Shown piece by piece: positions 42,162 to 57,817 of a DNA stretch of 64,000 nucleotides. The notes below the pieces were generated by a model that did no database searches, had not been told where the DNA came from, and saw only the letters and a program-made list of their open reading frames with translations. Source of the stretch: Rhabdaerophilum sp. SD176 (GTDB lineage: Bacteria > Pseudomonadota > Alphaproteobacteria > Rhizobiales > Beijerinckiaceae); the NCBI RefSeq assembly GCF_030143245.1, contig NZ_JARJNS010000001.1, positions 1 through 64,000 of the forward strand, written 5' to 3'. Both the position numbers and the translations under genes were made by a program. The number at the start of each line of letters is the position of its first letter. Within the stretch, counting starts at the first letter, position 1.

Positions 42162-43493
42162 TCAAGCCAGCCGACCCTCTATCTGACCACGGATTCGCTC
42201 CTGCGTGGCGGCATCAACCGGAAAGTTCCACATCAGCCCGATTGCGACGAGCTTGAGCAGGACCGGCAGCCCGGCATAGAGGAAGGCCAGCATGCCCAGC
42301 CCGGTGCTGCCCTTGCCCTGCGCGTCGAACCCCGCCCAGCCGAGCAGCGGAAAGGCCAGCCCGACAGCAAGCGCCAGCGCCAGTTTTGTCGCCAGCCCCC
42401 AGAAGGCCAGATAGAGGCCGGAACGCTGGGAACCGGATTCAGCGGTATCAAGATCGATGACATCCGCCTGCTGTGCGCCGGGCAGGATCATGTCTGCCCC
42501 AAGGGCAAGCCCGGTCACAATGCAGACGATGGCGAAAGCCGTCACCGCCCCGGCATCAAGGAACACCGCCGGCAGGAAGCCGGCGCAAGCGAGGATCATC
42601 GCATAGCACCAGCTCCGGTGCTTCCCGATTCGTTTCGACAGCCAGAGCCAGAATGGCACGCCGATGACCCCGCAGAGAAAGTAAAGCACCAGCAGCGGGC
42701 CCTGCGCGGCCTCGGCGCCGAGCACCCGGCCGACATAGAAGAGGAACAGGGTTGCCGGCAGGCCATTGGCGAGGCCGTTGAAGAAGAACGCAGCCAGCAG
42801 ACGCTGGAACGGCCGGTTGGCCTTCAGGAAGGGCAGGCCCTCGCGGAAGGATAGCGCGCGGGCGGAACGGTCGACCGGCTCGGGCACGGCCACGAGACAG
42901 GCCAGCGTGGCAACCGGCAGGAGAATGACAAGCACGAGCGCGAAGGCATCCAGCACAGGTCGCAGCGAGCCCGGCTTCTGCAGGGCACCGGCGAGCGCAA
43001 TCGCCGCGAAAGTGCCGAGCACGACCAGCGTTTCGCGGAACGCCATGACGCGCGTCCGGCCCGCATAACTGGAGGAAAGTTCGGCGCCCCACGCATTGTA
43101 GGGCACGAGCATGGCTGTCCAGGCAAGGGAAAGCGCCGTGCCCCAGAGGAAGAGGTAGCCGGCGCCGGCATCGGCCGGCGGCACGAAGACGAGATAGCCA
43201 GCCATTGCGGTAGGCAGGACCGCCAGCGCGACCCAGATCCGGCGGCGGCCGAAGCGCGAGCGGGTGCCATCGGCGAGATGCCCGGCCAGCGGGTCGGAAA
43301 AGGCATCGATAACCCTTACGAGCAGCAGCGCCAGCCCGACCGCCTGCAAAGGCGCGCCAAGCTCCTCGGCATAGAATTTCGGCACGATGACGTAGAGCGG
43401 CAGCGTCAGGATCGCGAGCGGGAAGGCCGGCAGCGCATAGGCCAGCAACCGGAGGGCAGAGGGTTCGCTGGCGGGCGAGGGGGGCGCGGGCAT
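42162..43493 (-). CDS. MFS transporter, GPH (MelB-like) cation symporter family
   Basis: The 443-residue membrane protein has about twelve helices and the GPH motif VIDAFSDPLAGHLADGTRSRFGRRR (pieces: DAFSDPLAGHL, RSRFGRRRIWV). Its Asp residues bind the coupling cation in MelB relatives. GPH substrates are usually sugars or glycosides, though others are known. It lies 52 bases after leuD-like on the same strand and may be the last gene of the long operon, possibly exporting or importing an intermediate. The ATG at 43493 has AGGA eight bases upstream; a longer frame adds 40 low-complexity residues. Confidence 0.85.
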   Translation of the reverse strand: MPAPPSPASEPSALRLLAYALPAFPLAILTLPLYVIVPKFYAEELGAPLQAVGLALLLVRVIDAFSDPLAGHLADGTRSRFGRRRIWVALAVLPTAMAGYLVFVPPADAGAGYLFLWGTALSLAWTAMLVPYNAWGAELSSSYAGRTRVMAFRETLVVLGTFAAIALAGALQKPGSLRPVLDAFALVLVILLPVATLACLVAVPEPVDRSARALSFREGLPFLKANRPFQRLLAAFFFNGLANGLPATLFLFYVGRVLGAEAAQGPLLVLYFLCGVIGVPFWLWLSKRIGKHRSWCYAMILACAGFLPAVFLDAGAVTAFAIVCIVTGLALGADMILPGAQQADVIDLDTAESGSQRSGLYLAFWGLATKLALALAVGLAFPLLGWAGFDAQGKGSTGLGMLAFLYAGLPVLLKLVAIGLMWNFPVDAATQERIRGQIEGRLA

Positions 43494-43545
43494 CGGCAAT
43501 TCCTGTGAGGATCTGCCCGGCTTACGTGCCGCGCGCGCGAACCGA

Positions 43546-44154
43546 TCAGCCCGGCAGGATCCACGGCGCCTCCGCAATGCGCCGGGCCCGGAAAGCGGTA
43601 ATCTCGCCGGCATGGCGGCGCGTCAGGTCGAGATCGTCCCAGCCATTGAGCAATTGCAGCCGGCGCACGGCATCGATGGCAAACGGGAAGGACCGATGAC
43701 CGATCTCGATCCGCAGGTCTTCGAGATCGACCTTGAGGCGTGGATGCTCGGCGCCTTCCAGCAAAGCGAGGATCGTCTCGGCATCTTCCGGGCTGACCTG
43801 CGCCGGCAGAAGGCCGTTCTTGACGGCATTCGAGGCGAAGATATCGCCGAAGGACGGAGCGATCACGCAGCGTATGCCAAAATCCCACAGCGCATAGACC
43901 GCCGCCTCGCGTGAGGAGCCGGTACCGAAATTCCGCCGCGCGACAACAATCGCCGCCCCGGCATGGCGGGCCTCGTCGAGCATAAAGCCGAGGCTCTGCC
44001 CATCCGGACCGAAGCGGAGATCATGCAGCAGGAAGCGGCCATAGCCCTCGCTGCGCGGCCGGCTCATGAAACGGGCAGGGATGAGCTGGTCCGTATCGAC
44101 ATTGGCGAGGCCGAGCGGGCAGGTGGTGGCTTCAAGATGGATGAAACGTTCCAT
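43546..44154 (-). CDS. leuD: LeuD-like dehydratase small subunit (3-isopropylmalate dehydratase family)
   Basis: The 202-residue swivelling-domain subunit shows VDTDQLIPARFM, RNFGTGSSREAAVYALWDFGIRCVI (pieces: RNFGTGSSREAA) and SFGDIFASNAVKNGLLP, the LeuD landmarks. With the LeuC-like protein it forms an aconitase-type hydro-lyase. It could be ordinary leucine biosynthesis, but the gene sits inside a catabolic operon with lyase, hydantoinase and importer genes. This favours hydration of a substituted maleate (citraconate, dimethylmaleate or maleate) to a malate. It starts three bases after the leuC-like stop. Confidence 0.9.
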   Translation of the reverse strand: MERFIHLEATTCPLGLANVDTDQLIPARFMSRPRSEGYGRFLLHDLRFGPDGQSLGFMLDEARHAGAAIVVARRNFGTGSSREAAVYALWDFGIRCVIAPSFGDIFASNAVKNGLLPAQVSPEDAETILALLEGAEHPRLKVDLEDLRIEIGHRSFPFAIDAVRRLQLLNGWDDLDLTRRHAGEITAFRARRIAEAPWILPG

Positions 44155-44157
44155 GGA

Positions 44158-45558
44158 TCAGCCTCCGGCCAACTTGCGCAGGTCCGTCAGCCGCCCGGTA
44201 ACGGCAGCTGCGGCGACCATGGCCGGCGACATCAGATGCGTCCGGGCATCCTTGCCCTGCCGGCCGCGGAAATTCCGGTTCGTCGTCGATGCGCACCGTT
44301 CGCCAGCGGCAACAAGGTCACCATTCATGCCGACACACATGGAACAGCCGGAATCCGCCCATTCCAGCCCGGCCTCTCGGAAGATCAGGTCGAGCCCCTC
44401 GCGCTCGGCCTGCGCTTTCACGCGCGACGATCCGGGCGAAACCAGCCCGGGCACGATGGCCTTGCGGCCCCGCAGGACAGAAGCCGCCGCCCGCAGATCC
44501 TCGATCCGCGCATTGGTGCAGGAACCGATGAAGACCCGGTCGACCCTGACATCCTCGAGCCGCATCCCCGCTTCAAGTCCCATATAGTCGATGGCCTGCT
44601 GCAGATAGCCGGCGCGGGCGGGATCGGTTTCTTCCGCAGGGTCCGGCACCCGGGCATTGATCGGCAGGGCATCCTCGGGGCTCACACCCCAGGTGACAAG
44701 CGGCGCGATGGCCGAGGCGTCGAGCGCAATGTCACGGTCAAAGACCGCGTCCGGATCGCTGGCAAGGCCACGCCAGACCGCTTCTGCCCGATCGAACGCT
44801 TCTCCCTCCGGTGCGAGCGGCCGGCCCTGGAGATAGGCGAAGGTCACGGTATCGGGCGCAACCATGGCGCAGCGTGCACCGGCCTCGATCGACATGTTGC
44901 AAAGCGTCAGCCGCCCTTCCATGGACAGCGCGGAAATCACCTCGCCGGCATATTCCAGCGCGTGGCCCCGCGCGCCATCGGCGCCGATCGTGCGGATCAC
45001 ATGCAAGGCAAGGTCCTTGGCGCTGAGGCCGGGCGCCAGTGTGCCTTCGATCCGGATCCGCATGCGTTTCGGCTTCCGCTGCCAGAGCGTTTGCGTCATC
45101 AGCACATGCGCCACTTCCGACGCGCCGATCCCGAAGGCATAGGCGCCGAGCGCGCCGTGGGTGGAGGTGTGGCTGTCACCGCAGACGACAAGCAGGCCGG
45201 GCAGGGTCAGCCCCTGTTCCGGCCCCACGACATGGACAATCCCCTGATCGGGATCCTCGAGGCCGAAGAGCCGGAAACCATGCCGCGCGGCGTTGGCGGA
45301 AAGCCGCTCGACCATGCCGGCAATCTCCGGATTGTCGATCGCGGGGCGGTTCCGCGTGGGCACGTAATGATCGGCCACGCCGAAGGTCAGGGCCGGTTCG
45401 GCCACGGGCAGGCCGCGCGCCTCCACCTGCCGGAAAGCATGGTGCGAACCCTCATGCACGAAATGCCGGTCGACCCAGAGCAGGCTCTCGCCATCCTCGC
45501 GCGTGACGATGACATGGCTGTCCCATACCTTGTCGAAAAGCGTCCGGGCCTGTTTCAT
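44158..45558 (-). CDS. leuC: LeuC-like dehydratase large subunit (3-isopropylmalate dehydratase family)
   Basis: The 466-residue aconitase-family subunit keeps the three 4Fe-4S ligands: one Cys in FIGSCTNARIEDL and two in GCSMCVGMN. It also has CGDSHTSTHGALGAYAFGIGASEVAHVL (pieces: CGDSHTSTHGA, GIGASEVAHVL) and NRNFRGRQG. Length equals LeuC. The reaction is hydration/dehydration at a 2-substituted malate. Operon context (see leuD entry) suggests a catabolic paralogue related in use to maleate hydratase or dimethylmaleate hydratase, but sequence alone does not exclude isopropylmalate. A ten-base gap separates it from the isochorismatase-fold gene. Confidence 0.9.
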   Translation of the reverse strand: MKQARTLFDKVWDSHVIVTREDGESLLWVDRHFVHEGSHHAFRQVEARGLPVAEPALTFGVADHYVPTRNRPAIDNPEIAGMVERLSANAARHGFRLFGLEDPDQGIVHVVGPEQGLTLPGLLVVCGDSHTSTHGALGAYAFGIGASEVAHVLMTQTLWQRKPKRMRIRIEGTLAPGLSAKDLALHVIRTIGADGARGHALEYAGEVISALSMEGRLTLCNMSIEAGARCAMVAPDTVTFAYLQGRPLAPEGEAFDRAEAVWRGLASDPDAVFDRDIALDASAIAPLVTWGVSPEDALPINARVPDPAEETDPARAGYLQQAIDYMGLEAGMRLEDVRVDRVFIGSCTNARIEDLRAAASVLRGRKAIVPGLVSPGSSRVKAQAEREGLDLIFREAGLEWADSGCSMCVGMNGDLVAAGERCASTTNRNFRGRQGKDARTHLMSPAMVAAAAVTGRLTDLRKLAGG

Positions 45559-45567: not shown

Positions 45568-46173
45568 TTATCCGATTTCCGCCAGCATCTCGGCAATGGT
45601 GGCGATGCGGGCCACCGGGCGCAAGGCCTCGATGGCCGTCCGGTGGGTTTCCGGCGAGAAGGCCGCACAGCCATCCTCGAGCACGATGGCGTCGATATCC
45701 CGCACATGCGCCTCGCGCACGGTCGAGGCGACACCGCCATTGGTCACGATACCCGCCACAACAAGCTGGCTGATACCGGTCTTGCGCAAAACCCATTCGA
45801 GGCGGCTCATATAGAACGCCGAATAGGCGACCTTCTCCACCGCGATATCCACCGGCTGCAGCGCATCCACCGTACGCTGCCCCCAGCTGCCCGGGGCAAA
45901 ATCGCCCTTGGCGAGGAAGGGCCGGAGCTGCTTCAGATGCGGTGAGATGATCGGCTCACCGCCCCGGCCCGGCACCAGCGTGAACTGGGTGGCCAGAACC
46001 GGCGCGCCGTTTCGGCGGAAGGCCTCCGCCAGCGGCGCCAGCCGGGCAGGCAGGGCGGCGATCTCCGCCGCCCCCTGGCCCGCGCGTCCATAGGCCCCCT
46101 TCGGATCGAGGAAATCGTTCTGCAGGTCCACCAGAAGGAGGCCCGCTTTGGCCAGGTCGAATGGCGCGGCCAT
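45568..46173 (-). CDS. Isochorismatase-fold hydrolase lacking the catalytic Cys
   Basis: The 201-residue protein has the isochorismatase/nicotinamidase fold with the conserved Asp16 (LLVDLQNDF) and Lys114 (VEKVAYSAF). The nucleophile position, normally Cys in a T-x-x-C-V motif, reads T144-N-G-G147-V, so Cys is Gly. Amidases of the family (nicotinamidase, maleamate amidase) need that Cys. True isochorismatases and E. coli YecD also lack it. It may therefore hydrolyse a non-amide bond or have another role. Its ATG overlaps the hyuA stop, so it belongs to the operon. Confidence 0.88.
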   Translation of the reverse strand: MAAPFDLAKAGLLLVDLQNDFLDPKGAYGRAGQGAAEIAALPARLAPLAEAFRRNGAPVLATQFTLVPGRGGEPIISPHLKQLRPFLAKGDFAPGSWGQRTVDALQPVDIAVEKVAYSAFYMSRLEWVLRKTGISQLVVAGIVTNGGVASTVREAHVRDIDAIVLEDGCAAFSPETHRTAIEALRPVARIATIAEMLAEIG

Positions 46174-48236
46174 CAGCTGTCCCTTTCCACGATGAGATTG
46201 CCGAAGGCATCAACCCGCGCCGCGAGCCCGGGATCCACGACAATCGTGGAATCCGGTTGTTCGAGAATGGCCGGACCGGCGATCCGCGCCCCGACCGGCA
46301 GGTCGAGCCGGGCATAGATGGCCGTGTCATGCCAACCACCGGCAAACCAGACCGGCCGCGTGCCGGTCCGTGCCCCTTCAAGCGTGGTCGTACCGGAAGG
46401 CGCGAGCGCCGCGAGGTCGAATTCGGGCCTGCGGCCGATGGCCGCCGTACGGAGATTGACGACTTTCACCGGGATTCCAGGGAGCAACCGCGAGAAAGCC
46501 CGCGAATAGGCCGCCTCGAAGGCCGCGCGAACATCAGCCTCGGTGAGCTCGACCCTCCCGCCCTGCAAGGTGGCGGCCAGCGGAACGGCAACCGTATGCG
46601 TCTGCCCGAGATAATGCATGTCGAGCTCATAGGCGATGTCGATCCGCGTGACCGAGAGCGAGGCGCAAGCCACCACCGCGCGGGCCGCCTCGCCGGTCTC
46701 GACCATCCGGCGTGTCAACGCGCCGGTATCGAGCCCGTCGAGCATGAGATTGACCGTCGCCACCTCGTCATGCCGGATATCTGCAATGATGCAGCCCAAC
46801 GCCGAGGTAATCCCGGGATAGCGCGGCACCAGCGCCGAGCGCAGGCCGACCTCATGGATCAGCGCTCCGACATGCAGCGCACCGCCGCCGCCAAAGGGTA
46901 CGGCGGTGAATTTTGTCGGATCATGGCCGCGCTCGATGGAGACGAGCCGGATCGCCCCGGCCATTTTCGCGTTCGCGACCCGGACAATCGCCTCGGCCGC
47001 CGCCTCGACCGAAAGACCCAGCCTGTCTCCGATCGAAGCGCCGATGGCCGCCCGCGCGGCTTCCACATCGAGCCGCTTCAGCTTTCCGCCGATCGGCTTG
47101 TCGGCATTGATCCGCCCGAGCACAATATTCGCATCGGTCAGCGTCGGGCGGGTATTGCCCTGCGCATAGGCGACAGGGCCCGGCCGCGAGCCTGCGCTTT
47201 CCGGCCCGACGGCAAGCAGACCGCCCTTGTCGACATGGGCAATCGAGCCACCGCCGGCCCCGATCGTGGTGATTTCGATCATCGGCGTCCGGACGACGAG
47301 GCCGAAATCGATCGTCGTCTGCGCCGCCAGAGCGGCCTCGCCGCCGGCGACGAGCGAAACATCGAAGGACGTGCCACCGAGATCGGCGGTCACGATATCC
47401 GGGAAACCGGCCGCGCGGGCAATCGCCGCCGCCGCGATAACCCCGGCCGCCGGGCCTGAAAGCGCGGTGCGGACCGGGAATTTCCGGGCCACCGCGGTCG
47501 ACATCACCCCGCCATTGGACTGGACGATATGGAAGGACCCGCCGAACCCGTCCGCCGCCAGCGCGTTTTCCAGCTTGGCCAGATAGGACGCCACAACCGG
47601 CTGGAGATAGGCATTGAGCGCCAGCGTGGAAGTGCGCTCGAATTCGCGGATCTCCGGCAGCAACTGGTGCGAGGCCGCGACATGGTCATTCGGCCAGACC
47701 GCCTTCACCGCTGCATAGGCGGCTTTCTCGTTGGCCGGATTGGCATAGGCATTGATGAAGACGATGGCCACGGCCTCGGCCCCTGCGGCCAGCAACGCGC
47801 GCGCAGCCTCCTGGCATTCCGAAGCAGAAACGGCCTGCCGCACCGTCCCATCGGCCAGCACGCGCTCGGCAACGCCGAGCCGCATGTCGCGGCTGGCGAC
47901 AGGTTCGAAATCGCCCCAGAGGCCCCAGGTTTTCGGACGGTCGCGACGGCGCATCTCAAGCACGTCGCGGAAGCCCGCGGTGGTGATCAGCCCGATCCGC
48001 GCGCCCTTACGCTCAAGCAGCGCATTCGTGCCGACAGTCGTGCCATGCACGATGGCGCCCAGGCGGGCAATCGCGTCAAGCTGGCGCAGCCCGTCGATGA
48101 ACCCCACCGCCTCGTCGCCACGGTTCGACGGAACCTTGGCCACGCGGAAGCTGCGGGTGGCCTCGTCGAAATAGGCGAGATCGGTGAACGTGCCGCCGAC
48201 ATCGACACCGACGATCGAGCTCTGGCCCTTGCTCAT
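46173..48236 (-). CDS. hyuA: Hydantoinase/oxoprolinase subunit A (HyuA family)
   Basis: The 687-residue protein has the N-terminal ATPase-like GVDVGGTFTDLAYFD, VHGTTVGTNALLERKGARIGLITTAGFRDVLE (pieces: HGTTVGTNALLERKG), SNGGVMS, and the C-terminal hydantoinase A fold. The family uses ATP to activate a cyclic amide (5-oxoproline, N-methylhydantoin, caprolactam) for hydrolysis; relatives are acetone carboxylase subunits. With the adjacent HyuB it should open a lactam or imide ring. It overlaps both neighbours. Substrate is unknown; the downstream hydratase/lyase genes suggest a C4-C6 cyclic imide or lactam. Confidence 0.93.
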   Translation of the reverse strand: MSKGQSSIVGVDVGGTFTDLAYFDEATRSFRVAKVPSNRGDEAVGFIDGLRQLDAIARLGAIVHGTTVGTNALLERKGARIGLITTAGFRDVLEMRRRDRPKTWGLWGDFEPVASRDMRLGVAERVLADGTVRQAVSASECQEAARALLAAGAEAVAIVFINAYANPANEKAAYAAVKAVWPNDHVAASHQLLPEIREFERTSTLALNAYLQPVVASYLAKLENALAADGFGGSFHIVQSNGGVMSTAVARKFPVRTALSGPAAGVIAAAAIARAAGFPDIVTADLGGTSFDVSLVAGGEAALAAQTTIDFGLVVRTPMIEITTIGAGGGSIAHVDKGGLLAVGPESAGSRPGPVAYAQGNTRPTLTDANIVLGRINADKPIGGKLKRLDVEAARAAIGASIGDRLGLSVEAAAEAIVRVANAKMAGAIRLVSIERGHDPTKFTAVPFGGGGALHVGALIHEVGLRSALVPRYPGITSALGCIIADIRHDEVATVNLMLDGLDTGALTRRMVETGEAARAVVACASLSVTRIDIAYELDMHYLGQTHTVAVPLAATLQGGRVELTEADVRAAFEAAYSRAFSRLLPGIPVKVVNLRTAAIGRRPEFDLAALAPSGTTTLEGARTGTRPVWFAGGWHDTAIYARLDLPVGARIAGPAILEQPDSTIVVDPGLAARVDAFGNLIVERDS

Positions 48237-49972
48237 GATGCCGCCCCGTTTCTCAGCGTGGCCGTTGACGCCGCATCGACATCACCGCCGGCATCGAGCG
48301 CCACGCCGTAGACTTCACGCGCCACGTTGGCGCCGATCAACCCCTGCCGGACATCCCGTGCCACTGCGACGGGATCCCGCGCCATCGGCGGCCCCCAGCC
48401 GCCCCCGCCGGGCGATTGCAGCCGGATTTCCTGTCCGGGCGCGATCCGGACACCGGTGATCTTCGAGGCCATGGGCGGTGATTGCAGGCCATTCTCGCTT
48501 TGCCAATGGAAGAGGTTCAGCGCCCCGGGCTCGCCGCCGGCCACGCCGAACGGCGCATAGCGCCCGCGTTCGCCGAGCAAGGCCACTTCCGCGCCGCCTT
48601 CCGCCAGAACCTCGAGCGCGTAGACTGCGCCGACACCGCCGCGATGCTTTCCCGCGCCGGCGCTGTCCGGCCGCAGGCCCCATTCGGTGAACATCACCGG
48701 ATAGGAGGCTTCGAGAATCTCCGCCGGCGGCATCGTGGCGGTCGAGATCGGGTTGTTGGAATGGTTGAGGCCATCCGTTTCCGGATTGCCGCCCAGCCCG
48801 CCACCGAAAAACGAGAACATCACCCAACGATCGCCATTGGCCCGGTGGCCGGCGACGGACAGGGCGTTGATCGTGCCGAAGGGCGCCGCCGTGGCACGGG
48901 CAGGATCCGCCTGGGCGAGGGCGCCGAACACCACGCCGATCATCCGCAGGATCGTCTCGGTATAGCCGGCCACGGGGCGCGGCGCAGAAACGCCGAGGAA
49001 GCTGTTGTCGGAAATCTCGAAGGTGATCGGCCTCAGGCAGCCGGCATTGGCCGGCACTTCCGTGAAAACATGCTTCAGCGCGACATAGCAGGCTGCGACC
49101 GCCGTCGACCGCGCAATATTCACCGGCCCCCGGCAGGCGGGCGAGGAGCGCGAGAAATCGAGCACCATCGTCTCGCCGGCAATCGTCAGGTCGAGCGCGA
49201 TGGTCAGCCGCTCGTCGGTGATGCCATCATTGTCGAGATAATCCTCGAACGTGTAGGTACCGTCGGGCAAGGCGGCGATGTTGTCGCGCATCAACCGCTC
49301 GGCCCGCTGCGAGGCGGCCTCCAGCGCGGCCTCGACAACGGCATCGCCATATTCGTCAATCAAAGCCTGGAACCGCCGCTCGCCAAGATCGAGCGCATTG
49401 AGCTGGCCGTTGAGATCGCCCCAGTTGGAACGGGGAACACGGCTGTTGGCCTGAAGGATATCGACGATATCCTGCTGCATCACGCCCTTGCGGAACAGCT
49501 TCACCGGCGGGATCAACACGCCTTCCTGGAAGCTCTCCACCGCCTTGGGATTGTAGCCGCCGGGCACATTGCCGCCGATATCGAGCCAATGCCCGACCGA
49601 GGCGAGCCAGGCGAAGATCCGCCCCTGCCGCATCAGCGGCTTGACCAGCCGGAAATCGTTGAGATGCGTGCCGCCGGCGTAAGGATCGTTGAACAGGAAG
49701 ACATCGCCTTCCTCGAGTCCGCCATCCCGTGCCACCTTGTCGATCACCGCCTTCACGGCAAAGGCCATGGCGCCGACGAAGATCGGCAGGCCGTTCTGGC
49801 CCTGCACCAGCGTGTCGCCGGTCTCGGGGTGGTAGAGCCCGTGGCAGGCATCGCGCGCCTCCGCGATGATCGGGTTGAAGGCCGAGCGATAGAGCGTGGC
49901 GTCCATTTCGTCGGCAATCTGCTCCAGCCGCCCGGTCAGGACGGCGAAGGTCACGGGGTCGAGCGCAATCAT
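48233..49972 (-). CDS. hyuB: Hydantoinase/oxoprolinase subunit B (HyuB family)
   Basis: The 579-residue protein matches HyuB: RDACHGLYHPETGDTLVQGQNGLPIFVGAM region (pieces: SEARDAC-like AEARDACHGL, QGQNGLPIFV), DVFLFNDPYAGGTHLNDF (FNDPYAGGTHLND) and the glycine-rich C-terminal SPGGGGWGPP. It forms a heteromeric ATP-dependent cyclic-amide hydrolase with HyuA. Both genes overlap by four bases, as do hyuB and the lyase gene upstream. No truncation seen. Confidence 0.93.
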   Translation of the reverse strand: MIALDPVTFAVLTGRLEQIADEMDATLYRSAFNPIIAEARDACHGLYHPETGDTLVQGQNGLPIFVGAMAFAVKAVIDKVARDGGLEEGDVFLFNDPYAGGTHLNDFRLVKPLMRQGRIFAWLASVGHWLDIGGNVPGGYNPKAVESFQEGVLIPPVKLFRKGVMQQDIVDILQANSRVPRSNWGDLNGQLNALDLGERRFQALIDEYGDAVVEAALEAASQRAERLMRDNIAALPDGTYTFEDYLDNDGITDERLTIALDLTIAGETMVLDFSRSSPACRGPVNIARSTAVAACYVALKHVFTEVPANAGCLRPITFEISDNSFLGVSAPRPVAGYTETILRMIGVVFGALAQADPARATAAPFGTINALSVAGHRANGDRWVMFSFFGGGLGGNPETDGLNHSNNPISTATMPPAEILEASYPVMFTEWGLRPDSAGAGKHRGGVGAVYALEVLAEGGAEVALLGERGRYAPFGVAGGEPGALNLFHWQSENGLQSPPMASKITGVRIAPGQEIRLQSPGGGGWGPPMARDPVAVARDVRQGLIGANVAREVYGVALDAGGDVDAASTATLRNGAAS

Positions 49973-50856: not shown

Positions 50857-52238
50857 GAGAGGGCCTCGCCAAGCGTGAGGAAAGCGCGGGTGGAGGGAAG
50901 GGTTTCAAGCGCGAGAGCCTGGGTGACCACCGCCTCCGCGCGCCGGGGACCAAGGAGCGGGTCGGCGATTTCGCGGAATTTGGCAATCACATCATCGGCG
51001 CTGTAGGGATCCTCGGTATCGCCCCTGTTGGTGCGGACCTCCGCGACGAGGCTCTCGCCGGAGGTGAGCGTCACCGTAACCCGTGCCGGCCGCAAGCCGG
51101 GCAGCATCGCGGTGAGGGAGGGGTCTTCCTGCACCTCGACCCGCCGGGCAAGGGCGCGTGTGGTCTCGTCCGCCCGGGCGGCGTCGCGGAACGCATCCAA
51201 TGTCGCCGCGCCGTTGACGATCGTCGTCGCAAGCCCGAAGGGCAGCGAGAATTTCGCGGCGAGCATGTTGTCCGGCGCCGGATGGTCGAGCTGCGCCGCC
51301 CAGACATAGGTCTCGACCCGGATGGCGCGGATGGCATCCGGCTGAAGCGGCTTCCCGTGCTGCCGCGTGATCTCCATCAGCGCGTCGATGGCACCATGGG
51401 TGTAGCGGCAGGCGGCATGGCGCTTGAAATAGTTCCGGGCGACTTCCCAGCGCGTGCCGAGCGCCTCGGTCATCACCGCCGGCTCCCAGTTTTCGGCGGC
51501 AATCCCGCCATAGACCGAGCCCACACCGTCCGCCTCTCCCGTAAAGCCGGCTTCGGCAAGCTCCCAGGCCATCAGCCCGAGCATATTGGAAAAGCCGGCA
51601 TAGCTGTTCCGGATGGTTGCCCCTTCCAGCATGGTCCGGCGGCTTGTCGTCAGGCCGAGCGAGGAGGCGACATTGATCGTCGAGAGCATCCGGCCCGGCC
51701 CGGCGCGGTTCAGCGCCGCCACGCCGAGCGCCGCCCCCACGACACCCCAGGTGCCGTGCGGATGCATGGTCACACGCAGTTTCGAGGCCATGCCGATGCG
51801 GGCACCGATCTCGTAGCCGAGGATCAGGGCCCGGAGGAAGGCCGCACCGGAAACATCGCGCAGCCGGGCCGAGGCCATCAGGGCCGGGAAGACATGGATC
51901 CCCGGATGGCCGCGCGCATACTGGTTGCCTTCGTCGATCTCCAGCATCGTGCCGGCTGTGCCGTCGAGGAAGGCCTCCAGCGCCGGCGATCCGGATTTCC
52001 GCGCCTTGAAGCTCTTGCCGAGCCGCCGCGCGGCCTGCTGCACTTCCGGCTCCGTCCGGCCGGCGAGGATCGCGCCGAGGCAATCCAAAGCCACCAGCCG
52101 CGCGCGGCTGACCGCCTCTGGAGACATGTCCCGCAATTTCGTCCGGGAGGCGAAGCGGCTCCATTGCCGCAACCATGCCGGGTGCTTGCCGGTAACGAGG
52201 CGGGAGGCGGGAACCACGCCATGGGACAGCGTTTTCAT
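50853..52238 (-). CDS. MmgE/PrpD-family protein
   Basis: The 461-residue protein belongs to MmgE/PrpD. Characterised members include 2-methylcitrate dehydratase, cis-aconitate decarboxylase and iminodisuccinate epimerase. Visible family parts are RLVALDCLGAILAGR, DEGNQYARGHPGIHVFPA (EGNQYARGHPG), RMGMASKLRV-like IGMASKLRVTMHPHGTWG, and YKRHAACRYTHGAIDA-like FKRHAACRYTHGAID. It may dehydrate or isomerise a di- or tricarboxylate in the pathway of this operon. The ATG at 52238 has GGGG eight bases upstream; a GTG at 52244 overlaps the livF stop. Confidence 0.9.
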   Translation of the reverse strand: MKTLSHGVVPASRLVTGKHPAWLRQWSRFASRTKLRDMSPEAVSRARLVALDCLGAILAGRTEPEVQQAARRLGKSFKARKSGSPALEAFLDGTAGTMLEIDEGNQYARGHPGIHVFPALMASARLRDVSGAAFLRALILGYEIGARIGMASKLRVTMHPHGTWGVVGAALGVAALNRAGPGRMLSTINVASSLGLTTSRRTMLEGATIRNSYAGFSNMLGLMAWELAEAGFTGEADGVGSVYGGIAAENWEPAVMTEALGTRWEVARNYFKRHAACRYTHGAIDALMEITRQHGKPLQPDAIRAIRVETYVWAAQLDHPAPDNMLAAKFSLPFGLATTIVNGAATLDAFRDAARADETTRALARRVEVQEDPSLTAMLPGLRPARVTVTLTSGESLVAEVRTNRGDTEDPYSADDVIAKFREIADPLLGPRRAEAVVTQALALETLPSTRAFLTLGEALS

Positions 52239-52240
52239 CG

Positions 52241-52942
52241 TCACATCCCCAGATAGGTCTTCTCGAGTTCGGGATCGCGCGCCAGAACGCTGGCCTCGCC
52301 TGACAGCGCAACGGCGCCATTGGCAAGGACATAGGCGCGGGCGGCGAGTTCGAGCGATTGCACGACATTCTGCTCGACCAGCATCACCGCCAGCCCCTGT
52401 GCCGCAATGCTGGCAATGAGCTGGAACAGCTCTTCGACCAGCAGCGGCGACAGGCCGAGCGAGGGCTCGTCAAGGATCAGCAGCTTCGGCTCGGCCATCA
52501 GGCCGCGCCCGATCGCCAGCATCTGCTGCTCGCCGCCGGAAAGCGTGCCGGCAAACTGCCCCTCGCGCTCGCGAAGGCGCGGGAAGGTGGTAAAAGCCTG
52601 CTCGAGATTGCGGTTCCGGTTGGCCCGGGCACGGCGATAGGCGCCGAGTTCGAGGTTTTCCCGCACGGTCATGTTGGGAAAGATCTTGCGTCCCTCGGGA
52701 ACATGGATCAGCCCGCGCGCGACAATGCCGGCGGCATCCAGCCGCTCGATCGCCTCGCCCTCAAAACGGATGCTCCCGCGATCCGGGCGGATCAGGCCGG
52801 AAAGCGCACGGTTCAGCGTGGTCTTGCCGACGCCGTTTGCCCCGAGCACGGCGACAATCTCGCCCGCGCCGACCGATAGCGACACGCCCCGCAGCACGGG
52901 CATGGCGCCATATCCGGCTACCAGATCCTGCACCTCAAGCAT
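52241..52942 (-). CDS. livF: Liv-type ABC transporter ATP-binding protein LivF
   Basis: The 233-residue ATPase has Walker A GANGVGKTT, LIHVPEGRKIFPNMTV (a LivF hallmark), signature LSGGEQQML, and Walker B LLILDEPSLGL; the switch position reads EQN as in most LivF proteins. It pairs with LivG on the LivHM permease. Start at 52942 overlaps the livG 3' end by eight bases. Confidence 0.93.
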   Translation of the reverse strand: MLEVQDLVAGYGAMPVLRGVSLSVGAGEIVAVLGANGVGKTTLNRALSGLIRPDRGSIRFEGEAIERLDAAGIVARGLIHVPEGRKIFPNMTVRENLELGAYRRARANRNRNLEQAFTTFPRLREREGQFAGTLSGGEQQMLAIGRGLMAEPKLLILDEPSLGLSPLLVEELFQLIASIAAQGLAVMLVEQNVVQSLELAARAYVLANGAVALSGEASVLARDPELEKTYLGM

Positions 52943-53699
52943 GGGACGCTCCCTGCTGGGCCTGCATCCGCTTGGCGGCACCATGACCGAGATAAGCCTC
53001 GATCACCTTCGGATCGGACGCCACTTCCGAGGGCCGGCCCTTGGCGATCATCCGGCCCTGCGCGAGCACGGCCACCGTATCGCAGAGCTGCATCACCGCC
53101 TGCATCACATGCTCGACGATCAGGATCGTCACGCCGGAATCGCGGATTGCACGGACCACGGGAATCATGTCGCGGATTTCCGACGGGTTGAGGCCCGCAA
53201 GAACCTCGTCGAGCAGAAGAAGGCTCGGCTCCGTGGCCAGCGCCCGCGCCATTTCGAGCCGCTTCCGCCCGGCCACGGTGAGATCGCCGGCGGATTGGTC
53301 GAGCATCGGGCCAAGGCCGAGGCGCAGGGCGATATCCTCCGCACGCGCCATCGCCGCCTCGCGGCCGGGATGGCGCAGATAGGCGCCTACGGCGATGTTC
53401 TCGCGAACGGAAAGCCCGGCAAAGGGCTGCACGATCTGGAAGGTGCGGGCGATGCCGATCTCGGCGCGCCGATGCGCGGGCAGGGCAGTGATATCCCGTC
53501 CCCGGAAGGTGACCGCGCCAGCCGTCGGCTCGGCAAAACCGGCAATGACCGTGAAGAATGTCGTCTTGCCGGCGCCATTCGGCCCGATCAGACCGGTGAT
53601 CGAGCCGGCCTCCACGTCAAGCGAGGCATCATCCACGGCCACGAGCCCGCCGAAGCGCTTCGTGATCCCGGTACAGCGGAGCAGGGGAGTAGCGCTCAT
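52935..53699 (-). CDS. livG: Liv-type ABC transporter ATP-binding protein LivG
   Basis: The 254-residue ATPase has Walker A GPNGAGKTT, GIARTFQIVQPFAGLSVREN, signature region DLTVAGRKRLEMARAL, Walker B LLLLDEVLAGLN and switch His in VEHV. Note the signature reads LTVAGRKR rather than LSGGxQ, usual for LivG. Its ATG overlaps the livM stop by four bases; the frame is open upstream only as a run-on through livM. Confidence 0.93.
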   Translation of the reverse strand: MSATPLLRCTGITKRFGGLVAVDDASLDVEAGSITGLIGPNGAGKTTFFTVIAGFAEPTAGAVTFRGRDITALPAHRRAEIGIARTFQIVQPFAGLSVRENIAVGAYLRHPGREAAMARAEDIALRLGLGPMLDQSAGDLTVAGRKRLEMARALATEPSLLLLDEVLAGLNPSEIRDMIPVVRAIRDSGVTILIVEHVMQAVMQLCDTVAVLAQGRMIAKGRPSEVASDPKVIEAYLGHGAAKRMQAQQGASHA

Positions 53700-54688
53700 G
53701 CCCGGCCTCCCCGGAAAGCGGGCAGGATCCGGCGCAGGACGCCGAGCACGCCGCGCGGCGCAAAGGCAACGCAAAGGATCAGCAGCACGCCGAACACCAC
53801 GAGGTCGATCCCGGGCACCGCGCCGCCGAGCAGCCAGGTGAAGAAGGTCTTGGTAATTTCGCCGAGGCCGAGCAGCAGCACCGCCCCGGCCAGCGGGCCG
53901 AACACCGTGCCGATGCCGCCGATGATCGGCGCCAGCAGGGCCTCCACCGAGATCCACGGCCCGAAGGCGAGATTGGCATCGATATAGAGGAATTTCTGCG
54001 CATAGAGGCAGCCGGCTGCCGCCGTGATGCCGCCGGAAAGTGTGATCGCCTTCAGTTTGACCGCCAGCGCATCCACGCCGAGCGCCCGCGCGGCATCCTC
54101 GTTCTCGCGGACCGCAACGAGATAGGCGCCGAACCGGCTGCGGGCGATCCAGTGCGTCAGCAGCAGCACAAAGGCAACGAAGGACAGCGCAAGCCAGTAG
54201 AAGCTCCGCTTGTCGGCGAACTGGAAATTCGCGGCATCGATCCGCAGCGGGATCAGCACGCCGGCGGCGCCTCCGGTGAAGGTGGAAGCATTGGCGAGAA
54301 TGCGGAACACCTCCGCGAAGGCCAAAGTCACCAGCGCGAAATAGGAGCCGCGCAGCCGCGCCCGGAAGCTGAGATAGCCGAGGATCGTGCCCGTCAGCGC
54401 CCCGAGCGCGATGGCGAGCGGCAGGGCCAGCCAGGGGTTGAGCCCGAACCGGACCTGCGCCAGCGCGATGCCGTAGGCGCCCATGCCGAAAAACGCAGCA
54501 TGGCCGAAGGAGAATTGCCCGCCATAGCCGGCCAGCAGATTCCAGCCCTGCGCTGCCAGTGTGACGATCAGTACGAAGCCGAGGAAATTCAGCGTCGTAT
54601 TGGCCGAAAATCCGAAGGGCAGAACGGCAAGCGCCACCACCACGATCAGGATCGGCCCGTAGCCGCTGGTGAAGAGCCCGCCTTTCAT
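53696..54688 (-). CDS. livM: Liv-type ABC transporter permease LivM
   Basis: The 330-residue hydrophobic protein shows GYGGQFSFGHAAFFGMGAYG, GSYFALVTLAFAEVFRIL and the cytoplasmic coupling segment AVRENEDAARALGVD, with GGIGTVFGPLAGAVLL near the end. These are LivM features. The start at 54688 overlaps the livH stop (ATGA). It forms the channel with LivH in the importer of the long operon. Confidence 0.93.
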   Translation of the reverse strand: MKGGLFTSGYGPILIVVVALAVLPFGFSANTTLNFLGFVLIVTLAAQGWNLLAGYGGQFSFGHAAFFGMGAYGIALAQVRFGLNPWLALPLAIALGALTGTILGYLSFRARLRGSYFALVTLAFAEVFRILANASTFTGGAAGVLIPLRIDAANFQFADKRSFYWLALSFVAFVLLLTHWIARSRFGAYLVAVRENEDAARALGVDALAVKLKAITLSGGITAAAGCLYAQKFLYIDANLAFGPWISVEALLAPIIGGIGTVFGPLAGAVLLLGLGEITKTFFTWLLGGAVPGIDLVVFGVLLILCVAFAPRGVLGVLRRILPAFRGGRA

Positions 54689-55560
54689 GCCTTGGCTCCG
54701 AACAGGCCGGTCGGCCGGAAGAGCAGCACGACGAGGAAGATCAGGAAAATGCCGATCTGGCCCAGGCTTTCGCCGAAATAGAGGCCGGACAGGCTCTCGA
54801 CCACGCCGATGATCAGCCCGCCGGCCAATGCACCGCCGATCGAGCCCATCCCGCCAAGGACAACGATGGTGAAGGCCACGAGCACGAAGGCATTGCCGAC
54901 CCGCGGATTGACGAGGAAAGTCGGCATCAGCAGGCAGGCAGCGATGGCGAGGCATGCCGTGCCGATGCCGAAAGTGACCGCATAGATATGTGCGACATCA
55001 ATCCCGCAGAGCGCTGCGCCGGTCTTTTCCTTTGCCACGGCCCGGATGGCCTTGCCGGTATCGCTCCGCGCAAGCAGCAGCCAGAGCAGCCCGGCAACGG
55101 CAAGAGTGGCAACGAAGGCAATCACCTTTGGCGTCGAGAGGAACAGTGGCCCGACCTCCATGACCGAGAAGCCGTAAGGCACGTCGATGGACCGCGTATC
55201 GGAACGGAAAATGGCAAGCAGGGCATTCTCGATGATGATCGAGATGCCCAGGGTCACGAGCAGGATATTGCCATCATCGCCATGGCTGGCCGGGGTGATG
55301 ACCGCGCGCTGGAGTGCATAGCCGAGCACGAAGAACAGTGGCGTCAGGATGAAGACGGCGATGTACGGATCAAGCCCGAAAGCCTGATGCGCAACGAAAA
55401 CCGCAAACATGGCGAGTGTCAGCGTCGCGCCATGGGCGAAATTGATGATGTGCAGCACGCCATAGATCAGCGTCAGGCCAAGCGCGATCAGCGCATAGAC
55501 TGCGCCGGTCAGCAGGCCATTGGCGAGGGCCGAGAGGAAGATGTCGAACTTCAGCATCAT
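54685..55560 (-). CDS. livH: Liv-type ABC transporter permease LivH
   Basis: The product of about 291 residues matches LivH: ANGLLTGAVYALIALGLTLIYG, INFAHGATLTL and GGMGSIGGALAGGLIIG. Two adjacent ATGs (55560, 55557) serve as start; the ribosome site is weak. It follows the receptor gene across an 81-base spacer containing hairpins and overlaps livM. Confidence 0.92.
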   Translation of the reverse strand: MMLKFDIFLSALANGLLTGAVYALIALGLTLIYGVLHIINFAHGATLTLAMFAVFVAHQAFGLDPYIAVFILTPLFFVLGYALQRAVITPASHGDDGNILLVTLGISIIIENALLAIFRSDTRSIDVPYGFSVMEVGPLFLSTPKVIAFVATLAVAGLLWLLLARSDTGKAIRAVAKEKTGAALCGIDVAHIYAVTFGIGTACLAIAACLLMPTFLVNPRVGNAFVLVAFTIVVLGGMGSIGGALAGGLIIGVVESLSGLYFGESLGQIGIFLIFLVVLLFRPTGLFGAKA

Positions 55561-55611
55561 CGAACCATGCGAAAGGATGGCGCGGGCGCGAACGCCCACG
55601 CTTGAAGCGTA

Positions 55612-55639
55612 GCCCTCGAGGGGAAAGCCGTCCGAGGGC
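55612..55639 (-). repeat. Hairpin in the receptor-livH spacer
   Basis: GCCCTCG (55612-55618) pairs with CGAGGGC (55633-55639). It lies directly after the receptor stop codon on the minus strand. There is no U-tract. It probably acts as an mRNA stability or attenuation element rather than a full terminator. Confidence 0.35.
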
Positions 55640-55641
55640 CG

Positions 55642-56859
55642 TCAGATCACCGGGAAAACCGGCTTCGCATTGGCAACTTCGGTCGGGAAGATGATCTTGA
55701 TATCACCGTTCTGGACCTGCGTATTGACGGCGCGCGCCCCGGTGTTCTGGCCATCGACGAACTTGGTCGGGCCATAGGGCATGATGTGGTCGGAGAAGGT
55801 CGAGCTGTTCAGCGCCTCGATGATCTTCACCCGGTCGGCCGAACCGGCGCGCTCGATCGCATCCGCCAGCACCAGCACCGACGAATAATTGAGCGGCGTA
55901 TTGTAGAGCCAGACCTTGCCGGCGCGCTCCACTTCGGCCTTCACATTGGCCGTGCGCGGCTTGCGCATATCGGCCCAGTGGTTGCAGTCCATCACGTTCT
56001 CGGCCGCCGTCGGGAATTCCTTCACGAAGCGGAAATTCGACGCTGCGCCATTGAGCACCGCATAGATGCCCTTCGGCTTGATGCGCTGCTGCTGCATCGT
56101 GCGGGCGAGCAGCACGAATTCCGAGTAATAGCTCGACGGGATGACGAGATCCGGGTTCAGCGCGCGGATGCGCAGGGCGACATTCGCCATATCGCGCGAC
56201 GGCGTCGGATGCGCAACGGTTTCCAGAACCTCGAAGCCGCGCTTCGGCAACTCGGCCTGGAGCAGCTTCGCCATGCCCGAGCCGAACAGCCCGTCCTCAT
56301 GAACGATGACAACCGTCTTCGCCGGCTTGCCGGCAGCGTCGTTGAGCTTCACGAGGTTGTCGAGTGCGGAGGCCGTCACCGAGCCGAAGCCCGGGCCGAA
56401 GCGGAAGGTGTTCTTCAGGCCACGCTTCACGATCTGGTCTGAAACGCCGACATCGACGAGATAGGGGATGTCATAGCGCGAGGCGGCCTGGCTGGCGGCC
56501 AGGCAGATCGGCGAGGCAAAGCCGCCGACAATGGCCGCAACGCCTTCGGCCTGCATCCGCTCGACTTCCTGCGTGCCGCCTTCCGGGTTCGAACGGGCAT
56601 CGCCGAACACCATTTCCAGCTTTGCGCCGCCCATCGACTTGATGCCGCCGGCAGCATTGAGTTCCTTGAGGGCGATTTCTGCGCCGAGACGGCCGTATTC
56701 GCCATCTTGTGCAAGCGCGCCGGTCACCGGTTGGAGGATGCCGATCTTGATGGCCGGCGCCTGCGCCCGCAGCACGGCAGGCATGCTGATTGTGGCAATC
56801 GAACCGAGCGCAGCGGTCTTCAGAAGCGACCGGCGGTCAAAGCCGGAAAGTTTCGTCAT
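55642..56859 (-). CDS. Liv-type ABC transporter periplasmic substrate-binding protein
   Basis: The 405-residue receptor has a Tat-like signal (DRRSLLKTAALGSIATISM) ending near LRAQAP. The mature type I periplasmic binding domain has IKIGILQPVTGALAQDGEYGRLGAEIALKELNAAGG-type sequence (pieces: IGILQPVTGALAQDGE, EIALKELNAAGG), EVERMQAEGVAAIVGGFAS and AASRYDIPYLVDVGVSD. It defines the entry substrate of the long operon, which by its enzymes may be a cyclic amide or imide. The start at 56859 has GGAG upstream. Confidence 0.92.
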   Translation of the reverse strand: MTKLSGFDRRSLLKTAALGSIATISMPAVLRAQAPAIKIGILQPVTGALAQDGEYGRLGAEIALKELNAAGGIKSMGGAKLEMVFGDARSNPEGGTQEVERMQAEGVAAIVGGFASPICLAASQAASRYDIPYLVDVGVSDQIVKRGLKNTFRFGPGFGSVTASALDNLVKLNDAAGKPAKTVVIVHEDGLFGSGMAKLLQAELPKRGFEVLETVAHPTPSRDMANVALRIRALNPDLVIPSSYYSEFVLLARTMQQQRIKPKGIYAVLNGAASNFRFVKEFPTAAENVMDCNHWADMRKPRTANVKAEVERAGKVWLYNTPLNYSSVLVLADAIERAGSADRVKIIEALNSSTFSDHIMPYGPTKFVDGQNTGARAVNTQVQNGDIKIIFPTEVANAKPVFPVI

Positions 56860-56936
56860 GGCACGTTCTCCTCTTGGCGGTCCGGCACAGCCGGTTGGGG
56901 TTGTCGCGCGGTCAACGGGACCGGTTTCGATCCGGA

Positions 56937-56952
56937 CAGGCCCGAGGGCCTG
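56937..56952 (-). repeat. Hairpin in the gap between gntR and the receptor gene
   Basis: CAGGCCC (56937-56943) pairs with GGGCCTG (56946-56952) in the 121-base gap between gntR and the receptor gene. No clear U-tract follows. It may partly separate the regulator transcript from the operon. A second promoter for the receptor could lie here but I could not define one. Confidence 0.3.
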
Positions 56953-56980
56953 CCCCGAAGGTGCATGCCCGGCACGCGCG

Positions 56981-57817
56981 CTAGAGCGGCGTGATGGACG
57001 GACGGCGCAGGTTGCCCCGGCCGGGAATTGGCTTGGCCTCGGCCCCGGGCCGGGTCAGGCTCGAGACGGGGGACCAGCGCCGCTCGGCGCCGATACCGGT
57101 CCGGGTCATCTCCATCTGGAAGCTGTGCAGGTCCGGCCGGTACAGGGCGGAGAGATACTCGACGCCTCGGCCGTGATCGTCATAGACCACACGGGTCATG
57201 CTGAGCAGCGGCGAGCCGATCTCGACCTGGAGAAGTTCGGCGATTTCCGGCCCGGCAAGGGTGGCGGTCACGGTCTGGCTGGCACGGTCCGCCACGACGC
57301 CTGACCGCTCCAGCAGCGTCAACAGCGGCGTGCTGGCCAGATCGGCTTCCGAGTAGGTGACGCCGATCCGCTCCGGCACATAGGTCGTCAGATGCGAGAA
57401 CGGCGTGTCATCAATGTAGCGGACACGGATAGAATGCTGCACGCGCTCGCCATCAGCAAGTTTCAGCGCCACCGAAACAGCCGGCGGCGATGGCTGGTAG
57501 CTGAAGGAGAGCAGCTTGGCCCGGGTGGCCCGACCCATCGCCACGAGATGGGCGAGCATGTTCGAGAGATCACCCACCACGCCCTTGCGCGGCCGCGCAT
57601 CGAGCACGAAAGTTCCGGCCCCCGGCTGGCGGCGGATCAGCCCGTCCTGCTCAAGCCCTTCGAGCGCACGGCGGATGGTCACACGGGAAAGGCGATGCTG
57701 GGCCGCGAGTTGCGGCTCCGAGGGCAGGCGATGCCCGGGAGACAGCACGCCCTTCAGGATCTGCTCCTTCAACAGCAGATACAGGCGTTGCGTCTTGGAC
57801 GGTTCGATAGCAACCAC
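56981..57817 (-). CDS. GntR/HutC-family transcriptional regulator (UTRA domain)
   Basis: The product of about 278 residues has a GntR winged helix (LLLKEQILKGVLSPGHRLPSE in part: LPSEPQLAAQHRLSRVTIRRAL) and a C-terminal UTRA effector domain. It heads the long minus-strand operon and is divergent from the flavoprotein gene, so it probably controls one or both through the AT-rich gap. I chose the GTG at 57817, with GGGAG ten bases upstream; the frame is open to 57910, but that extension runs through the promoter-like region and is unlikely. Confidence 0.85.
   Translation of the reverse strand: MVAIEPSKTQRLYLLLKEQILKGVLSPGHRLPSEPQLAAQHRLSRVTIRRALEGLEQDGLIRRQPGAGTFVLDARPRKGVVGDLSNMLAHLVAMGRATRAKLLSFSYQPSPPAVSVALKLADGERVQHSIRVRYIDDTPFSHLTTYVPERIGVTYSEADLASTPLLTLLERSGVVADRASQTVTATLAGPEIAELLQVEIGSPLLSMTRVVYDDHGRGVEYLSALYRPDLHSFQMEMTRTGIGAERRWSPVSSLTRPGAEAKPIPGRGNLRRPSITPL

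Follow-up and report, generated by a model that had tools for sequence, protein, structure and literature searches.

A widespread gene cluster of Alphaproteobacteria that may encode an undescribed catabolic pathway for a cyclic imide

What does a bacterium degrade with an operon in which hydantoinase-like, isochorismatase-like, LeuCD-like and isocitrate lyase-like genes lie end to end? The question is raised by a stretch of 64,000 nucleotides of Rhabdaerophilum sp. SD176 (RefSeq assembly GCF_030143245.1, contig NZ_JARJNS010000001.1, positions 1 to 64,000; hereafter the window), in which fourteen minus-strand genes run in the order gntR, livK, livHMGF, prpD, icl, hyuB, hyuA, iso, leuC, leuD and MFS (42162-57817). 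A sequence-only reading had proposed that their products open an imported cyclic imide or lactam and convert it to a substituted malate. That idea remains the best available reading, with three corrections: a conserved divergent flavoprotein gene, frd, had been left out; the isochorismatase-fold protein (iso) lacks a catalytic cysteine; and the outlet is probably glutarate. We propose that the operon and frd together direct the uptake and breakdown of a cyclic imide with a carboxyethyl side chain, an interpretation to which we give somewhat less than even credence.

The gene set is conserved well beyond its host. Homologous clusters were found in many Alphaproteobacteria and in one Betaproteobacterium that was examined, and their core consists of a GntR regulator, a hydratase that is either LeuCD or the distantly homologous HacAB, a lyase of the ICL/PrpB family, HyuA, HyuB, iso and frd. 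A search of 84,980 species genomes with the ICL-family lyase as query gave at least 590 matching stretches, of which 559 were confirmed and the best 80 kept; the 49 loci used here are those in which icl is flanked by 7.5 kb or more in each direction, the other 31 having been dropped for their short flanks. Among these 49, a hydratase of either type was present in 47, iso in 44, GntR in 43, HyuA together with HyuB in 42, and frd in 37. HyuAB or an allantoinase-like enzyme was found in 45, while hydratase, HyuAB, iso and frd were all present in 34. Since these loci had been selected by ICL, the conservation test was repeated starting from iso. The gene occurred in 21 of 318 class-level genomes, that of the window included, and the remaining 20 loci, some on short contigs, contained HyuAB (18), ICL (15), the hydratase (13) and frd (10). 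The grouping of HyuAB with LeuCD-like and ICL-like genes, on which the sequence-only reading was built, is thus a conserved one.

In 297 order-level genomes, iso was found in 46, ICL in 48 and frd in 44, one of the last being a 42% match (G189). By hand counts, iso and ICL co-occurred in 45 of these genomes, with iso alone in one, ICL alone in three and neither in 248 (Fisher p = 1.7e-48); iso and frd co-occurred in 42, with iso alone in four (p = 2.8e-45) and frd alone in one, the 42%-identical match having been set aside as a paralogue (two if it is kept). The sampled genomes share kinship, so that the p-values overstate independence; the association of the genes is far above chance. The same set was found on annotated plasmids of Sulfitobacter, Azospirillum, Roseomonas and Neorhizobium, and a Paraburkholderia plasmid carries it with HacAB, frd not lying within the stretch. 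ICL relatives without HyuAB were also seen among ten plasmid loci, in Comamonadaceae (53% ICL identity), Roseivivax (58%), Halomarina (45%) and one Azospirillum (42%). As a separate observation, hyuA of Sulfitobacter pontiacus (L144, 9334-11399) appears in the annotation as a pair of hypothetical proteins, which may reflect a frameshift.

The ring-opening position bears on what the cluster acts on. The window's hyuA (46173..48236, minus; PF01968/PF05378) and hyuB (48233..49972, minus; PF02538, 569 bits) encode, by their Pfam domains, the ATP-binding hydantoinase A subunit and the hydantoinase B/oxoprolinase subunit, each present in 42 of the 49 loci. The best-scoring model for the pair is caprolactamase, followed by acetophenone carboxylase, and the best solved chain is N-methylhydantoinase, followed by acetone/acetophenone carboxylase; ATP-dependent hydrolysis of a cyclic amide, as opposed to carboxylation, is a predicted function, the window's HyuA scoring 506 bits against a caprolactamase alpha cut-off of 1000. 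In five other loci (L030, L037, L041, L042, L079) a single amidohydrolase of the allantoinase/dihydropyrimidinase type follows icl in the slot of HyuAB; the L037 protein, when scanned, gave 235 bits to AllB (cut-off 358). On the available stretches of L030, L037, L041 and L079 iso was not found, the L042 contig ends after the amidohydrolase, and L041 and L079 are also without frd. In a further genome (G020; L118, 7002-10793) a hyuB remnant beside HacAB and ICL is adjoined by a Cys-type isochorismatase-fold hydrolase and by two PuuE-type (polysaccharide-deacetylase-like) proteins of 134 and 112 bits (cut-off 425). This genome gave no match for iso, and its frd lies 30 kb from the cluster. PuuE relatives include imide hydrolases, and the HyuAB step has apparently been replaced here by other hydrolases. 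That three kinds of cyclic-amide hydrolase turn up in a single slot is, in our view, what speaks most strongly for the opening of a cyclic amide, imide or ureide. The ring opening in the earlier proposal is supported by these exchanges, and its choice of substrate stays a proposal.

The same exchanges bear on a 5-substituted hydantoin or ureide as the substrate, which HyuAB would convert to an N-carbamoyl acid for hydrolysis by iso, with racemases attending to stereochemistry and the other enzymes to the carbon skeleton. The HyuAB, allantoinase-type and PuuE-type families all include hydantoin or allantoin hydrolases, iso resembles biuret and triuret hydrolases, and genes like Asp/Glu/hydantoin racemases were seen in L036, L130, L145 and L148. 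However, an amino acid product fits poorly with a set of dehydrogenase, hydratase and 2-hydroxyacid lyase, and a racemase-like gene was detected in none of the 49 loci at the cut used; we regard a hydantoin as quite unlikely.

The protein that should act next, iso (45568..46173, minus), has retained Asp16 and Lys114 of the isochorismatase fold, with Gly147 in place of the catalytic cysteine. In alignment, this glycine takes the position at which RutB and triuret hydrolase have their catalytic Cys, where structure titles name C162S and C169S mutants; YecD also has Gly there. The glycine was found in 63 of 63 aligned homologues, in which Asp and Lys were likewise kept without exception, and again in 20 of 20 proteins of the independent class-level sample. 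Judged by the aligned cysteine position, iso falls outside the group of isochorismatase-fold cysteine hydrolases (NicF, RutB, CSHase, BiuH). Its predicted model (pLDDT 93.9) is nonetheless nearest by Foldseek to triuret, biuret and ureidoacrylate hydrolases, with maleamate amidases and EntB/PhzD-type enzymes ranking lower among the first 50 rows. The fold named in the sequence-only reading was borne out, and a plain cysteine-hydrolase mechanism for the deamidation has become doubtful. Dialkylmaleamates hydrolyse unaided through their own carboxylate, and iso may bring about the same net reaction as the cysteine hydrolases if its substrate likewise has a carboxylate able to attack.

The residues of iso lend themselves to another explanation. 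EntB/PhzD-type isochorismatases carry an Asp/Lys/Gly set, which is also that of iso, and act on a vinyl ether. If the substrate were a cyclic enamide, such as a reduced hydroxypyridine or pyrrolinone, HyuAB would yield an enamine that iso would hydrolyse by acid catalysis, and LeuCD and ICL would then handle the carbon much as the last enzymes of nicotinate fermentation do. The replacement of Cys by Gly would then be accounted for; the single amidohydrolase in the place of both HyuAB and iso (L030, L037, L041, L079) would recall the bifunctional enamidase of that fermentation, and a FAD_binding_3 monooxygenase lies near the L048 cluster. On the other hand, the aldehyde or ketone product would need enzymes outside the core, the fold comparison for iso puts urea-type amide hydrolases at the top, above EntB/PhzD, and no cobalamin-dependent 2-methyleneglutarate mutase or methylitaconate isomerase was noticed in the clusters, where no dedicated search for them was made. 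We consider the enamide unlikely.

The leuC and leuD genes of the hydratase could simply be biosynthetic. Both subunits do score above curated leucine cut-offs, LeuC (44158..45558, minus) at 636 bits against 560 for the NCBIfam model and LeuD (43546..44154, minus) at 158 bits against 116. The idea that they form an ordinary leucine-biosynthesis enzyme in an incidental neighbourhood is almost certainly wrong, because the same genome has a second, canonical LeuC and LeuD on contig C17, and the LeuC tree separates the two. In this tree of 59 rows, built by a quick method without bootstrap, 26 cluster LeuC sequences including that of the window form one clade (SH-aLRT 99), while the canonical rows, the C17 copy among them, form a separate 17-row clade (100), in which two intermediate rows are included. 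The LeuC of Saezia (L080) falls just outside the cluster clade, and a long-branched sequence on the canonical side (L076_1) is the second LeuC of its locus, the cluster copy being L076_10. The window LeuD gave 160 bits to TIGR00171, compared with 254 for the canonical LeuD on C17, and its loop motif is ARFMSRPR, not KQFLKTIK. By sequence, then, the window LeuCD is not the leucine-biosynthesis copy, as the sequence-only reading had assumed when it named a sole, canonical copy as the finding that would speak against it.

Furthermore, HacA/HacB-type subunits occupy the LeuCD position in the clusters of several lineages. The L055 hydratase reaches 426 bits with hacA_fam (cut-off 386), and the HacAB-type cluster hydratases fall below the HacA/HacB equivalog cut-offs. 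In an alignment of 26 rows, from which the four LeuD-type rows were left out, 19 of 22 HacB-type subunits have Lys or Arg in the substrate loop, at a position where Arg occurs in methanogen homoaconitase and, we presume, marks a homoaconitase.

The two remaining core enzymes would act on either side of this hydration. The soluble FAD-dependent dehydrogenase/reductase encoded by frd (57943..59343, plus), divergent from gntR and linked in 37 of the 49 loci, belongs to the flavocytochrome c/TcuA/3-ketosteroid dehydrogenase family. Two His are kept, and all 48 sequences have Tyr at the Arg402 position of fumarate reductase, so that the proton-donor Arg of fumarate and urocanate reductases is not present; the two Tyr positions of frd are also occupied by Tyr in ten of ten TcuA rows. 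We read frd as a dehydrogenase on the basis of these Tyr residues, its score with the TcuA model being 152.8 bits (cut-off 369). The Tyr pattern had also been considered as proof of a ring-carbonyl substrate, which was dropped, since TcuA shares it and acts on a free tricarboxylate. The C-C lyase of the ICL/PEP-mutase superfamily (icl, 49969..50856, minus) gave 270 bits with the PrpB model (cut-off 354). Its residues Asp86, Asp88, Cys123 (within KRCGH), Arg158, Phe186, Glu188, Asn212 and Arg243 are invariant in 81 of 81 homologues. Among proteins of solved structure, petal death protein and PrpB match it best, and dimethylmalate lyase ranks lower.

The fate of the lyase products is suggested by genes that join the cluster in some lineages. 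A gene resembling gcdH (glutaryl-CoA dehydrogenase) was found in nine clusters (L036, L049, L073, L128, L184, L186, L189, L197, L198), and all nine products carry ER[VI]DSGYRS and NTYEGTHD, which we take to be the carboxylate-binding and catalytic motifs of GcdH. In L128 and L073 the gene shares an overlap with the end of frd, in L197 and L198 it comes no more than 100 bp after frd, and in L036 the distance past frd is 1.4 kb; in L049 it stands after iso, and in L184, L186 and L189 between iso and LeuCD. A family III CoA-transferase gene adjoins it in L049, L184, L186, L189 and L198; in L179 such a gene occurs alone, between iso and LeuC. A gcdH match was obtained in 62 of 66 cluster genomes, and it lay beside the cluster in six (G021, G134, G166, G329, G457, G554) from three families, compared with a chance expectation, calculated by hand, of about 0.3-0.6 genomes; it is an additional copy in G329, G457 and G554 (family f85). 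Tistrella mobilis KA081020-065 has the genes distributed between two complementary plasmids, of which pTM1 (L145) carries frd, gntR, liv, prpD and icl, with one further frd-like gene, one further prpD, a tautomerase and two Asp/Glu racemase-like genes as extras, and pTM2 (L203, with L189 being the same stretch) carries gntR, hyuBA, iso, gcdH, a CoA-transferase and leuCD. Glutarate is the probable outlet suggested by these sequences. A lyase that releases glutarate would have homoisocitrate or 2-methylhomoisocitrate as its substrate and would call for a homoaconitase-like hydratase, which agrees with the HacAB exchange and the basic residue in the HacB loops.

A pathway can be assembled from these parts, in which the enzyme reactions, the order of the second to fourth steps and the substrate are what we infer, and the gene content, conservation, residues, exchanges and linkage are what was observed. 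The substrate would enter through the Liv ABC system, or through TRAP in other hosts. Given a saturated ring or a saturated opened acid, frd would carry out a FAD-dependent alpha,beta-dehydrogenation; HyuAB would open the ring to a half-amide at the expense of ATP; and the Cys-less iso would bring about the loss of ammonia, perhaps with the neighbouring maleamate carboxylate as nucleophile. This would leave a maleate that bears a carboxyethyl group and perhaps also a methyl group, which LeuCD (elsewhere HacAB) would hydrate to a 2-hydroxytricarboxylate of the homoisocitrate type. The lyase would then split this compound into a 2-oxo acid (pyruvate or glyoxylate) and glutarate, and the latter could proceed to crotonyl-CoA via the CoA-transferase and glutaryl-CoA dehydrogenase.

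A specific substrate can also be named, the most appealing candidate by its skeleton and, taken by itself, possible though rather unlikely: hematinic or dihydrohematinic acid derived from chlorophyll, heme or bilins. Hematinic acid is the monopyrrole that arises from the propionate-bearing rings of these tetrapyrroles, and dihydrohematinic acid comes from the reduced ring D of chlorophyll. In this scheme, frd would convert the dihydro-imide of ring D to the maleimide, HyuAB would open the maleimide, iso would free ammonia from the dialkylmaleamate as its own carboxylate attacks the amide, and LeuCD or HacAB would form 2-methylhomoisocitrate, from which the lyase would release pyruvate and glutarate. 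Hematinic acid would thus use every core enzyme without a gap. We know of no described bacterial route that recycles the monopyrrole end products of tetrapyrroles, and a search of the open-licence literature found no paper on bacterial growth on hematinic acid. Hematinic acid is described as a stable chlorophyll breakdown product, present in senescent leaves and in leaves 45 million years old (PMC12860425). Isonicotinate/2,6-dioxopiperidine-4-carboxylate was rejected as a substrate, since it would give tricarballylate and cis-aconitate, a matter for ordinary tricarboxylic acid cycle enzymes, and would leave gcdH unexplained.

Several observations weigh against the cyclic imide pathway. Substrate and activities are predictions from the genes. 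Characterised amidases of the isochorismatase fold use Cys, and to our knowledge the deamidation of a half-amide by a Cys-less member has no precedent. The HyuAB stand-ins score below the curated cut-offs of their families, and the replacement of HyuAB by the amidohydrolase was observed at the cluster loci. Three of the 22 HacB-type subunits have Ala or Ser in the substrate loop, and 12 of the 49 loci have no frd near the cluster, though 42 of the 46 order-level genomes with iso have one. As many as 60 of the 66 genomes show no gcdH-like gene next to the cluster (56 have it elsewhere, four have no match at the cut), among them that of the window, where it lies on contig C18 with none near the operon; in G021, G134 and G166 the copy beside the cluster is the only one, and may thus serve ordinary lysine/tryptophan breakdown. 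Its product reaches about 214 bits against a cut-off of 470 with one NCBIfam glutaryl-CoA dehydrogenase model, and its relatives are annotated as acyl-CoA dehydrogenases. The racemase-like, tautomerase and PrpD accessories are left without a stepwise explanation. Finally, L048 and L054 have iso without a cluster-type HyuAB (L054 has a distant pair, 29 and 37%), and Saezia L080 combines LeuCD, frd, Liv and ICL but lacks both HyuAB and iso, which suggests that the tail may serve more than one compound. It is to be noted that L048 and L054 also contain an arylmalonate-decarboxylase-like gene.

The Saezia locus speaks for another reading, in which the acid is delivered free and a tricarboxylate, such as butane-1,2,4-tricarboxylate or homocitrate, is the true substrate, with PrpD as dehydratase and with HyuAB and iso acting on something else. 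An Azospirillum cluster of the form ICL-LeuCD-ABC-ICL without HyuAB (L176, 3619-10852) and the haloarchaeon Halomarina, in which TcuA adjoins an ICL-like lyase (L175, 8470-10840), fit this explanation as well, and by sequence the hydratase/lyase tail seems to be reused in these two loci outside HyuAB clusters. The presence of HyuAB in 42 of the 49 ICL-found and 18 of the 20 iso-found loci speaks against a free tricarboxylate, which we regard as very unlikely, and the cyclic imide is retained here as the preferred one.

The operon itself is compact, and its fourteen genes, their order and their overlaps of 1-8 bp were confirmed by recomputed coordinates. Overlaps of 4 bp join livH/livM, livM/livG, livF/prpD, prpD/icl, icl/hyuB and hyuB/hyuA; livG and livF overlap by 8 bp, and hyuA and iso by 1 bp. 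The gaps are 9 bp (iso-leuC), 3 bp (leuC-leuD), 52 bp (leuD-MFS, with the MFS start chosen), 121 bp (gntR-livK) and 81 bp (livK-livH, with the livH start chosen). Domain scans, made first for ten proteins and separately for livHMGF, agreed at the family level with all fourteen names given in the sequence-only reading.

Uptake appears to be exchangeable. The window encodes a periplasmic Leu/Ile/Val-type receptor (livK, 55642..56859, minus; Peripla_BP_6, 170 bits), the permeases livH (54685..55560, minus; BPD_transp_2, 122 bits; upstream starts exist) and livM (53696..54688, minus; BPD_transp_2, 151 bits), and the ATPases livG (52935..53699, minus; ABC_tran and BCA_ABC_TP_C) and livF (52241..52942, minus; ABC_tran, 108 bits). 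A Liv receptor was found in 30 of the 49 loci and a TRAP DctP in ten, never both, with neither in nine; DctPQM was confirmed in L127. The MFS_2/GPH-type transporter (42162..43493, minus; PF13347, 257 bits) does belong to the operon, as had been noted, and is accessory, being present in 3 of the 49 loci; it was rejected as the main importer, its five ORF-level matches being all from the window or near-identical relatives. Similarly, the MmgE/PrpD-family gene (50853..52244, minus; Pfam) is indeed in the operon, and its proposed part as an essential isomerase or dehydratase was set aside, since only 12 of the 49 loci have it; its nearest solved relatives among PDB sequences are iminodisuccinate epimerase and the IRG1/cis-aconitate decarboxylases. 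Other accessory genes occur in varied combinations in L148, L145, L036 and L130 (a tautomerase, a second frd-like gene, an Asp/Glu racemase-like gene, a second PrpD), and in L148 an old-yellow-enzyme family protein, annotated as nitronate monooxygenase, lies between leuD and gntR.

The regulator is of the GntR/HutC type (gntR, 56981..57817, minus, GTG start; Pfam GntR 66 bits, UTRA 117 bits; 43 of the 49 loci). The intergenic region between gntR and the divergent frd holds an imperfect palindrome, CTGTC-N10-GACAG (57885..57906), a candidate operator that was also seen by eye in L005, L007 and L013. A looser pattern occurred in 12 of 179 upstream regions compared with 1 of 179 shuffled ones, and a HutC-type operator consensus in none of the 179. 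At up to three mismatches, the palindrome of the window is a single site in its genome, so that no further regulon genes are named.

By eye, the operon is bordered at its 3' end by an SbmA/YddA-type ABC transporter gene pointing towards it (40259-42157, plus), and beyond the start of the set by TctA, TctB and TctC transporter genes with a uronate isomerase-like gene (59304-63961, minus), which were set aside as an apparently separate sugar-acid system. Elsewhere in the window there are two strong cobalamin riboswitches, at 21237-21431 (plus, 124 bits) and 31209-31408 (minus, 142 bits).

Among the matches listed in a search of open-licence full text, no description of this gene set as a pathway was found, which is weak evidence of absence. 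The cluster appears to represent an undescribed and widespread catabolic route, with a nucleophile-less isochorismatase-fold enzyme and with LeuCD or HacAB in the role of a catabolic hydratase. If the tetrapyrrole substrate were true, the question of who mineralises hematinic acid and related maleimides would become directly testable.

The known systems that come closest include the last part of nicotinate fermentation as it runs in Eubacterium barkeri, with enamidase, dimethylmaleate hydratase (DmdAB) and dimethylmalate lyase; both combine a cyclic-amide hydrolase, an aconitase-family hydratase and an ICL-family lyase acting on a disubstituted maleate and malate, whereas the clusters described here have HyuAB and the Cys-less iso in place of enamidase, and a TcuA-like flavoprotein. 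Cyclic imide degradation in Blastobacter, by an imidase and a half-amidase, likewise proceeds in two hydrolytic steps, ring first and half-amide second, but its imidase is hydantoinase-type, and it is not known to include a hydratase, lyase or flavoprotein step. Individual enzymes show the same mixture of likeness and difference. The HyuA and HyuB architecture is that of caprolactamase (CapAB), 5-oxoprolinase and N-methylhydantoinase, while the window's HyuAB lies below the curated caprolactamase cut-offs and its operon differs from that of CapAB. Tricarballylate dehydrogenase TcuA shares the flavin fold and the two Tyr positions with frd, which however scores far below the TcuA cut-off and has no KRY motif. 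The cluster lyase has the catalytic residues of PrpB, the lyase of the 2-methylcitrate cycle, and of petal death protein/2,3-dimethylmalate lyase; it remains below the PrpB cut-off, and PrpC and AcnD are not in the window operon. Homoaconitase HacAB, finally, is the subfamily that fills the slot of LeuCD in several clusters, with the basic loop residue in most of them, yet the cluster subunits fall short of its equivalog cut-offs and stand in a catabolic neighbourhood.

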